Below, in pieces: positions 4,944 through 31,959 of a DNA stretch of 64,000 bases (the stretch's first letter is position 1; every line of letters begins with the position of its first letter). Under the pieces are notes generated by a model. It worked only from the letters and a program-made list of their open reading frames with translations. It was not told the origin of the DNA and did no database searches. The position numbers and the translations under genes are program-made. Origin of the DNA: Archangium lipolyticum (GTDB taxonomy: Bacteria > Myxococcota > Myxococcia > Myxococcales > Myxococcaceae); the NCBI RefSeq assembly GCF_024623785.1, contig NZ_JANKBZ010000006.1, forward strand, positions 248,001-312,000, in the 5' to 3' direction.

Positions 4944-5342
4944 TCACCTTCCGCCGTCACCCTCCTCGGGGTGCCCATGCATCGGATGCCCCTGCATCGG
5001 GTGTCCGTGCTCGTCCAGCGAGAGCGAGCCCCCATCCGGCTCGTCGGGCCTCGCCAGTGGCCGGGGCGGCAGGGGCGCCCGCAGCCGCCGGATGGCCGCG
5101 AGCCGCCGCTCCGCCTCGGGCCGCGCCTTCGACTCCCCAGGCACCGACTCCAGCTCGGAGATGACGCCGTCCCAGGCCGGGTCTCTCGGCGGCACGCCCC
5201 GCTCCACCAGGTCCGCGTATTTCCCCTGGGCCCGGGCGAGCCTCTCGGCTCCCTCGTCCTTCCGGCATGCCCCCAGGACCAGGCACCCCACCGCGAGCAG
5301 CATCACCGCCAGACGGCTTCGGTAGATGGGAAACACGTGCAA
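4944..5342 (-). CDS. Small lipoprotein with histidine-rich C-terminus
   Basis: A 132-residue lipoprotein. A signal peptide (MHVFPIYRSRLAVML) ends in lipobox VLGAC, with the Cys at about residue 26. The mature part starts with a charged, probably helical segment and ends with HGHPMQGHPMHGHP, a cluster of His and Met able to bind Ni, Co, Zn or Cu. The next gene, a NicO-type metal transporter, is divergent, with 36 bp between the two starts, so they may share a control region. A metal-binding role on the periplasmic side is inference from the His/Met cluster and this neighbour. Confidence 0.75.
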   Translation of the reverse strand: MHVFPIYRSRLAVMLLAVGCLVLGACRKDEGAERLARAQGKYADLVERGVPPRDPAWDGVISELESVPGESKARPEAERRLAAIRRLRAPLPPRPLARPDEPDGGSLSLDEHGHPMQGHPMHGHPEEGDGGR

Positions 5343-29875: not shown

Positions 29876-30550
29876 CTAGAGCCACGCGAAGGCTTCCCGC
29901 ATGGCCTGCTTGCCACCGCGCTCGAGCACCTGGCCATGACACGGCACCACGCGGTCGAAGTCCCAGGAGAGCACCCGGTCCCTCCAGGCCCGCAGCGCGG
30001 CCTTGTCCTTCACCATGGTCTTGAGCAGCCAGGTGGGCGCCAGCCGCTCGTAGGCTCCGCACAGCTTCAGATAGTTGCGCGTCAGCCACGAGTGCGAGTC
30101 GTGGATGTTGAAGGCCACGTCGGCGAGCAGCAGGGTGCGGCTGGGGCGGTGCAGGAAGGAGAACTCCTCCAGCTTGGGGATGCCGCGCGCGAGGAGCAGC
30201 TCGACGGTGGGTGACTGGCCCACGTCCATCACGTCCGACAGCTCCACGTCGATGCGCAGGTCCTTGCGTTTGGCGCGCAACCCCGCGGGCGCGAGCACCC
30301 GGGCCGAGGGGTACGCCGCGGCCCAATCCCCGAGCGACAGGTGGTGCATGGTGTTGGGCGCCACCAGGAAGCGCACTGGCCCCACGGCATCCACCGCCTG
30401 GCGCACGGCGGCGTCCAGCTTCACGGGCGAGTGCAGCCACAGGCCGCCCTCCGGCAGGCGCACCACCGTCATTCGTCCGCCCAGGTCGAAGCCCCTCATG
30501 TGGAAGGGCACATCCAGGACGAAGAGGTCATCGGACAGGGGGCGCAACAT
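29876..30550 (-). CDS. DUF4336 (metallo-beta-lactamase-like) protein
   Basis: A 224-residue cytoplasmic protein of the DUF4336 family, distantly related to metallo-beta-lactamases. VAPNTMHHLSLGDW near residue 68 and PCHGQVLERGG near the C-terminus are the metal-binding positions. The classical HxHxDH motif is absent, so activity is uncertain. No signal peptide. It is followed downstream by repeat copy 2 and divergent from the microviridin-type gene. Confidence 0.82.
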   Translation of the reverse strand: MLRPLSDDLFVLDVPFHMRGFDLGGRMTVVRLPEGGLWLHSPVKLDAAVRQAVDAVGPVRFLVAPNTMHHLSLGDWAAAYPSARVLAPAGLRAKRKDLRIDVELSDVMDVGQSPTVELLLARGIPKLEEFSFLHRPSRTLLLADVAFNIHDSHSWLTRNYLKLCGAYERLAPTWLLKTMVKDKAALRAWRDRVLSWDFDRVVPCHGQVLERGGKQAMREAFAWL

Positions 30551-30812
30551 GGCGGGGCTCCTTGGTTTCGACCACTACCCTGAAACCTAACCGACGGTCG
30601 GAAGACGCATCCCCTTCTTCATCCCTGGTGGCCCGACCCCCGCGATGCAGACCGAGCAGGCGGAAGAACGGGCCCGTCGTGCGGTCCGTGACATTCGGCT
30701 CCAGGGGACTCGATCTCCATGAGCAACCGACTCACCCGAGGTGCCCATCACGGTGAGCCGCGGTTGCTCATACACCCCCCACATTGGCCAGCAGGCCACA
30801 TGGAGTCTGGAC

Positions 30813-31016
30813 ATGAAAAAGAACGCATTGAACAAGGCACCGCTGCAGGGCAAGAAGCCGTTCTTCGCGCGGCTGTTGGACGCTCAGGAACTCGAGCAGG
30901 CCGCGGGCGGTGGCGTCCCCGTGCAGACCAAGAAGTACCCCTCGGACCAGGACGAGGGCGGGCCCATCTTCACCACCCTGAAGTACCCCTCGGACAAGGA
31001 CGAGGGCACCTGGTAG
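30813..31016 (+). CDS. Microviridin-type (graspetide) precursor peptide with two KYPSD cores
   Basis: A 67-residue RiPP precursor. The leader contains PFFARLL at residues 16-22, matching the PFFARFL recognition helix of microviridin leaders. After a double-Gly-type AAGGG boundary come two cores: TKKYPSDQDEG (39-49) and TLKYPSDKDEG (55-65), followed by TW. Microviridins are crosslinked by ATP-grasp ligases through Thr, Lys, Ser and acidic side chains, mostly to give serine-protease inhibitors. GGAG lies 7 bases before the ATG. No ATP-grasp ligase, acetyltransferase or transporter gene is adjacent, so modification must depend on enzymes encoded elsewhere, or the gene is a relic. Confidence 0.88.
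   Translation: MKKNALNKAPLQGKKPFFARLLDAQELEQAAGGGVPVQTKKYPSDQDEGGPIFTTLKYPSDKDEGTW
30927..31007 (+). repeat. Tandem core repeat in precursor gene
   Basis: Two near-identical 33-bp units (30927-30959 and 30975-31007), each encoding TxKYPSDxDEG, separated by 15 bp. They show duplication of the core peptide. Confidence 0.9.
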
Positions 31017-31293: not shown

Positions 31294-31959
31294 GTGTCCG
31301 TCCGGCCCCGCTCCGCAGGCTTCACCCTCGTTGAAGTGATGGTCGTGGTCGCCATCCTCGGTGTCCTCGTGACGCTCGCGGGAGTGGCGGTGTTCCATGG
31401 CACCGCGCGTGTGCGCGTGAGCAACGCCGCCTTCGAGGTGAGCGCGCTGTACACGGCCGCACAGATGCGCGCCACCAGCATGGGCGTGCCGCACTACGTC
31501 GTCTTCCACGATGACGGCACCACGTTCGGCGTCTCGCTGCTGGAGCGCGCGGATGCGCTCGGCGCCTACAACTGGGCCAGTGATGATGTAACGGACATCG
31601 CCACCGTGGGAGGCGTCCAGCACGAGCGCCTGCGGCTGTCCGACAGTAGCGGCCTGGGCTTCCTGGACCTCGGCGCCTCCGGCTCGGAGCCGCGCGCGCT
31701 GCCCGCCCCCTTCTCCTCCATTCCCCTCACCCCGTCCGGCTCGGGCCGGCTGCTCGGCGGATGCTCCTTCTGTACCGAGGGCACGGGCGGTGCGCGCGGG
31801 GTCATCCGCTTCTCTCCCGATGGCACCGTGCAGGTGATGACGGGCGGCGCCGAGGCGGGCGGTGTCGTCGCCTTCGCACCGGATTCGGGCGGTGGCCGGT
31901 CCGGCTCGCCTCGCTGGGTGGTCATCGCCGCGCCGGCCGGAGCCGTCCGTGTCTTCTAG
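31294..31959 (+). CDS. Minor pseudopilin, FimT/FimU type
   Basis: Type IV pilus minor pilin of about 221 residues. A short basic leader ends in Gly before FTLVEVMVVVAILGVLVTLA, the prepilin-peptidase site and N-terminal helix with Glu at +5. A GspH/FimT-like globular domain follows. GTG 31294 is preferred, with AGGAG 8 bases upstream; the frame extends further up without a better site. It is first of a five-gene cassette ending in pilY1. Confidence 0.85.
   Translation: MSVRPRSAGFTLVEVMVVVAILGVLVTLAGVAVFHGTARVRVSNAAFEVSALYTAAQMRATSMGVPHYVVFHDDGTTFGVSLLERADALGAYNWASDDVTDIATVGGVQHERLRLSDSSGLGFLDLGASGSEPRALPAPFSSIPLTPSGSGRLLGGCSFCTEGTGGARGVIRFSPDGTVQVMTGGAEAGGVVAFAPDSGGGRSGSPRWVVIAAPAGAVRVF

Follow-up and report, generated by a model that had tools for sequence, protein, structure and literature searches.

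How is a microviridin-type precursor modified when no ATP-grasp ligase gene lies beside it? We address this question for a gene in a 64,000-nucleotide stretch of Archangium lipolyticum DNA (hereafter the window), which covers positions 248001–312000 of contig C6 in a genome of 12.6 Mb and 75 contigs (G000).

A two-core precursor gene beside a pilus operon

The open reading frame at 30813–31016 on the plus strand, as read from the window sequence, encodes 67 amino acids (MKKNALNKAPLQGKKPFFARLLDAQELEQAAGGGVPVQTKKYPSDQDEGGPIFTTLKYPSDKDEGTW). In profile searches the product matches NF033738 microvirid_RiPP of NCBIfam (50.8 bits, cut-off 26, E 2.2e-13) and PF12559 of Pfam (36.2 bits, cut-off 21, E 6.9e-9), and as both cut-offs are passed, standard annotation probably already names the gene as a microviridin/marinostatin-family inhibitor. 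It is 72% identical (E 9e-13) to a ligase-linked precursor on contig C8 of the same genome, and 84% identical to a syntenic copy in the relative G003. The microviridin-type precursor proposed in the initial annotation thus holds, and the PFFARLL motif and two TxKYPSDxDE cores described there are both present in the translation. The gene, its parts and its surroundings are as follows.

29876..30550, minus strand: DUF4336 protein gene (PF14234), divergent left neighbour, outside the system
30688..30711, plus strand: promoter-like motif GTGACATT-N12-ACTC (consensus approximately GTSACATY-N12-ASTC), from comparison of long-leader genes
30802..30805, plus strand: Shine-Dalgarno-like GGAG, read from the sequence ahead of the ATG
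30813..31016, plus strand: orphan class II microviridin-type precursor gene, 67 aa (translation, homology, profile matches)
30813..30911, plus strand: leader, residues 1–33, with double-glycine end AAGG (alignment of precursors)
30858..30878, plus strand: PFFARLL recognition motif, residues 16–22 (alignment)
30927..30956, plus strand: core 1, TKKYPSDQDE, residues 39–48 (six of six ring-forming positions)
30975..31004, plus strand: core 2, TLKYPSDKDE, residues 55–64 (six of six ring-forming positions)
31297..31959, plus strand: prepilin-type minor pilin gene (N_methyl PF07963, TIGR02532), right neighbour and start of a pilus operon, outside the system

The PFFARxL leader motif marks the precursor as a family member, and the presence of more than one core together with the AAGG leader end places it in class II, for which the double glycine and C39 transporters are described (PMC13039773). 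Leader motifs of the PFFAR type have a role in ligase activation (PMC7823629), and the P, F, F, A, L and L of the motif are invariant in 16 aligned precursors. The Thr, Lys, Ser, Asp, Asp/Glu and Asp/Glu of the ring positions are complete in both cores. The sequence GGAGTCYGG[AC]C before the ATG is repeated in several relatives. Four orphans (both of G001, and those of G003 and G004), though not the window copy, have a Cys directly after core 1 (PSDxDEC).

Asp at position 12 had been taken as a departure from the usual Glu that might alter ring chemistry. It is indeed found in both cores, but it is not unusual: among 216 TxKxPSD cores, taken from 79 public loci of other genomes, 126 have Asp and 89 have Glu at position 12, and DE is the commonest acidic pair. 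The published family consensus reads TX1KYPSDX2(D/E)(E/D), and in one core of AMdnA the second lactone depends on an acidic residue, Asp95 (PMC5934393). As Asp is the majority residue and a published lactone acceptor, we ruled out a distinct chemistry on this ground, and no new ring chemistry is called for.

The DUF4336 and minor pilin neighbours named in the initial annotation were confirmed by PF14234 and by PF07963 and TIGR02532, respectively. Its statement that no ATP-grasp ligase lies nearby extends to the whole of contig C6, on which no MvdD/MvdC-like ligase was found, and tblastn (E 1e-3) revealed no remnant ligase in the window. The DUF4336 orthologues of G001, G002, G004, G005 and G018 have no adjoining precursor; in G018, which belongs to another genus, approximately 1 kb separates DUF4336 from the second pilin gene, and a precursor frame was not found there. 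As the relatives' DUF4336 genes stand without it, the precursor gene was probably acquired at the window site in the G000/G003 line.

Ligases on another contig and unlinked precursors in relatives

The initial annotation left a choice between ligases acting in trans and a distinct enzyme, and the whole-genome ATP-grasp search it proposed finds an intact MdnB/MdnC-like pair. At C8:395.7–397.9 kb lies a complete locus in the order three-core precursor (MKKTLENKKPFFARLLEEQELEQVAGG...), MvdC/MdnB-like gene (C8:396682–397635; 414 bits; PDB 5IG8 (MdnB) matched at E 3e-90) and MvdD/MdnC-like gene (C8:395689–396630; 437 bits; PDB 5IG9 (MdnC) matched at E 2e-97), both ligases being full length. The window gene therefore departs from the canonical cluster in which the precursor adjoins its ligases, C6 having none and the pair being on C8. 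With this locus in the genome no distinct enzyme is needed, and ligases acting in trans are the better of the two options. The C8 and window precursors have in common the leader KKPFFARLLxxQELEQxAGG and TxKYPSDxDE cores, and the genome has no KYPSD codon pattern outside these two genes (a degenerate pattern also gave two single KYPTD matches). By our reading of the alignment, Glu191 and Asp192 of MdnC, reported as contacts of the leader Arg, are Lys and Gln in the C8 enzyme, and the leader contacts of the latter therefore differ in detail. The genome has nine C39 peptidase matches; one of them, at C8:388.7 kb, is separated by 9 kb from the C8 precursor. Genes for a C39-ABC transporter and for a third, distant ATP-grasp protein lie less than 10 kb from the C8 microviridin genes (locus L009, 2668–6393) and possibly form a second peptide cluster.

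A relic had been the expected reading if the genome held no graspetide ligase and its relatives no copy of the gene; we found both, the ligases on C8 and homologues in relatives. The search for conserved PFFARLL precursors, run on 59 genomes, was positive in 11, namely our own genome and ten relatives. Defining as unlinked a locus whose retrieved flanks (7–10 kb on each side) contain no ligase, we find unlinked precursors in six of the eight ligase-bearing genomes examined (G000, G002, G003 and G004, with two each in G001 and G032), at five different sites and all as open frames, with one intact ligase pair elsewhere in each genome. Synteny links the G003 locus to the window, with 8.7 kb aligned by blastn at 94% DNA identity, and in this closed genome the orphan lies approximately 4.7 Mb from the ligase pair. 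One copy in G001 (G001b) and those of G002 and G004 are syntenic (blastn) at one shared site different from that of the window. The ligases of G000–G005 and G032 form one clade with 100% bootstrap support; a clade of long-leader clusters in the ligase tree received only 21% and was not used as evidence.

Pairwise dN/dS, a coarse measure on 60–75 codons, is 0.49 (NG86) or 0.19 (YN00) between the window and G003 copies and 0.30, 0.32 and 0.41 (NG86) within the G001b/G002/G004 trio, all below 1, and the copy of this trio has been retained despite approximately 0.7 substitutions per synonymous site. Of 16 orphan cores, 15 retain all six ring positions. In the leader motif, one mutation is reportedly enough to block formation of the amide bond (PMC7823629). 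As two other orphans have PFFAQLL and PFFAHLL in place of PFFARLL, and one G004 core is without an acceptor, some orphans may be drifting.

Two relatives provide natural experiments. The G004 ligase pair lies at C1:275.2–277.2 kb with no KxPSD/FFAR precursor frame within the surrounding 16 kb, and the only KxPSD doublet genome-wide is that of the orphan at 9.63 Mb, approximately 3.3 Mb from the pair by the shorter arc of the 12.68-Mb contig, if circular. Intact ligases and an intact precursor have thus been kept, yet apart, as modification in trans predicts. Just upstream of G004 MdnB a short stretch, ATGAAGAAGCCGGAACAGGTGGCGGTGGGT, resembles a precursor leader shortened by deletion, which we conjecture it to be, and the MdnB frame may begin within this shrunken-leader-like stretch (MKKPEQVAVGAA; L062, 9100–9260, minus strand). 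Inspection of the isolated K[YF]PSD sites found at other positions in G003, G004 (one KYPSD) and G018 showed that none of them belongs to a precursor. In G032, a long-leader orphan with shortened spacing between its cores is followed directly 3′ by decayed MdnC fragments (L048, 8767–9150, minus strand), three in number, approximately 85% and 72% identical, with internal deletions and a stop, which reveals one route by which precursors become stranded. The other unlinked precursor of G032 (L058, 8831–8965, minus strand; C1:5.47 Mb) has a short leader without double glycine (MKQETKQKPFFARLLESQGSEPSENGQ...).

Among known systems, AMdnA of Anabaena sp. PCC 7120, also class II, likewise has a PFFAR motif and several TxKYPSDx(D/E)(E/D) cores, and shares with the window precursor the double glycine and the presence of MdnB/MdnC-type ligases in the genome (PMC5934393; PMC13039773). 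AMdnA-type precursors are, however, clustered with their ligases and have PFFARFL, whereas the window gene is on another contig than the ligases, has PFFARLL and carries its own upstream motif. Long-leader precursors also stand inside intact clusters, in Hyalangium versicolor (L070), in G018 (L050) and in a Myxococcaceae MAG (L069); they share the leader (MKKN...KPFFARLLEAQELE) of the window gene, have two cores and carry an upstream motif resembling its own but, unlike it, have MdnB and MdnC genes directly 3′. Prochlorosin-type lanthipeptide systems also serve many unlinked precursors with one modifying enzyme, as proposed here, although their thioether chemistry is performed by a LanM and their leaders are other than that of the window precursor. 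In the open-access literature we found no unlinked microviridin precursor. A scan of public genomes gave a few loci beyond the group, such as Nostoc L102, whose 8-kb flanks are complete and contain no ligase, and unlinked precursors may thus be wider than the Archangium group, the count being limited by contig ends. We also observed very long microviridin-type precursors with MdnB/MdnC-like ligases alongside (L059, L060 and L061, from G030, G009 and G006), in which a domain of approximately 100 residues is followed by PFFSRFLEG or PFFEHLLEN and then by about ten or more cores of the KAPSDNED/KYPSDNED type.

An upstream motif shared with lanthipeptide precursors

All ten long-leader precursors, at different sites and whether orphan or in a cluster, have a motif like GTSACATY-N12-ASTC at a distance of 46–127 nt ahead of the ATG; the copies in G001, G018 and Hyalangium depart slightly from it. 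This form was not seen before the short-leader precursors of ligase clusters, most of which instead have a TTGA...CATAGT-like region upstream. In our own genome GTSACATY-N12-RSTC has 17 exact matches against 1 for the pattern read backwards. One of the 17 is that of the window gene, and two others lie approximately 80–100 bases before two mersacidin-type precursors on contig C23, which adjoin a LanM-like gene and a C39 transporter; the one tested matches TIGR03898 with 71 bits. The two sites are at 4965 and 4550 of L148 (C23:84000–94500), on the minus strand. Given the 16 other matches, the computed expectation for matches within 150 bases upstream of 100 peptide genes is approximately 0.01. 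The same pairing is found in G001 (two), G002 (one) and G003 (two) (L166, L173, L174, L194 and L195), giving four genomes with our own, these pairings being partly orthologues and not independent. The remaining matches are upstream of lipoprotein and unrelated genes or within genes, and the motif is thus not peptide-specific.

We conjecture that the motif represents a promoter class, perhaps of the ECF type. A wider and tentative proposal, to which we give somewhat less than even credence, is a split graspetide system in which dispersed precursors, together with mersacidin-type ones, would be controlled by the same promoter class, possibly through one sigma factor of the ECF type, while one central MdnB/MdnC pair would cyclise every graspetide precursor of this type.

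Proposed modification in trans and its alternatives

We consider it likely that the window gene is a functional stand-alone class II microviridin-type graspetide precursor that is modified in trans by the C8 ligases, a reading drawn from sequence: the gene itself, the intact ligases elsewhere, conservation and selection, the differing sites and the common upstream motif. The PFFARLL leader helix would bind the MdnC-like and then the MdnB-like ATP-grasp ligase from C8. By analogy with microviridin, each core would acquire two lactones (Thr4–Asp10 and Ser9–Asp12) and one lactam (Lys6–Glu13), so that the two cores would allow up to six dehydrations. One of the C39 peptidase-transporters of the genome would probably remove the leader by cutting behind GG, and the secreted product would be a tandem tricyclic serine-protease inhibitor. 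The peptide after GG (GVPVQTKKYPSDQDEGGPIFTTLKYPSDKDEGTW) has a computed linear monoisotopic mass of 3782.83, which six dehydrations would lower to 3674.77 ([M+3H]3+ 1225.93). AMdnC is known to cyclise multi-core and foreign precursors in vitro (PMC5934393). The upstream region of the orphan differs from that of the C8 operon, and co-expression is therefore not assured.

Alternatively, the gene could be the leftover of a second microviridin cluster that has lost its ligases, unmodified, unused and drifting to loss. Orphaning by ligase loss is plausible as long-leader precursors exist within the intact clusters of G018, Hyalangium and the Myxococcaceae MAG, and the G032 orphan beside its ruined MdnC gene, with shortened core spacing, as well as the lack of any orphan precursor in G005, speak in the same direction. 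We nevertheless regard a relic as unlikely, since every orphan is an open frame, pairwise dN/dS is well under 1 in the pairs measured, the ring residues are intact in all but one core, the upstream motif is kept at several sites, and the G001/G002/G004 copy has survived considerable synonymous divergence; the idea may describe the origin of the gene without describing its present state.

It is less probable still that a different ATP-grasp enzyme modifies the precursor, such as the MvdD-like ligase at C37:56.8 kb (231 bits) or one of the more distant ligases of the genome (weaker matches on C17, C18 and at C8:391 kb). The C37 ligase is 37% identical to C8 MdnC and has no adjoining PFFAR/KxPSD precursor frame (L010, 6763–7719, minus strand), and C37-like ligases are present at 203–231 bits in G001, G003, G018 and G032. 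This type was not found in the orphan-bearing G002 and G004, whereas all tested genomes with an orphan have the MdnB/MdnC pair, and we thus rejected the C37 ligase as a weak candidate for the partner. A role for the uncyclised peptide, e.g., as a leader-like activator or decoy of ligases, could draw on the activation of MdnC or AMdnC in trans by free leader peptide in vitro (PMC7823629; PMC5934393), but we find it very improbable, as a leader-only function leaves the conservation of ring residues in both cores unexplained.

In conclusion, we favor modification of the window precursor in trans. The gene is a real, conserved member of the microviridin family with ordinary chemistry and an uncommon unlinked arrangement, and its novelty lies in arrangement and control, not in chemistry. 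Unlinked precursors of this kind escape surveys as substrates. For the Archangium group, G004, with its ligases but no neighbouring precursor, provides a clean natural experiment for modification in trans, and the genomes of the group offer a candidate for a switch that two unrelated peptide classes have in common.
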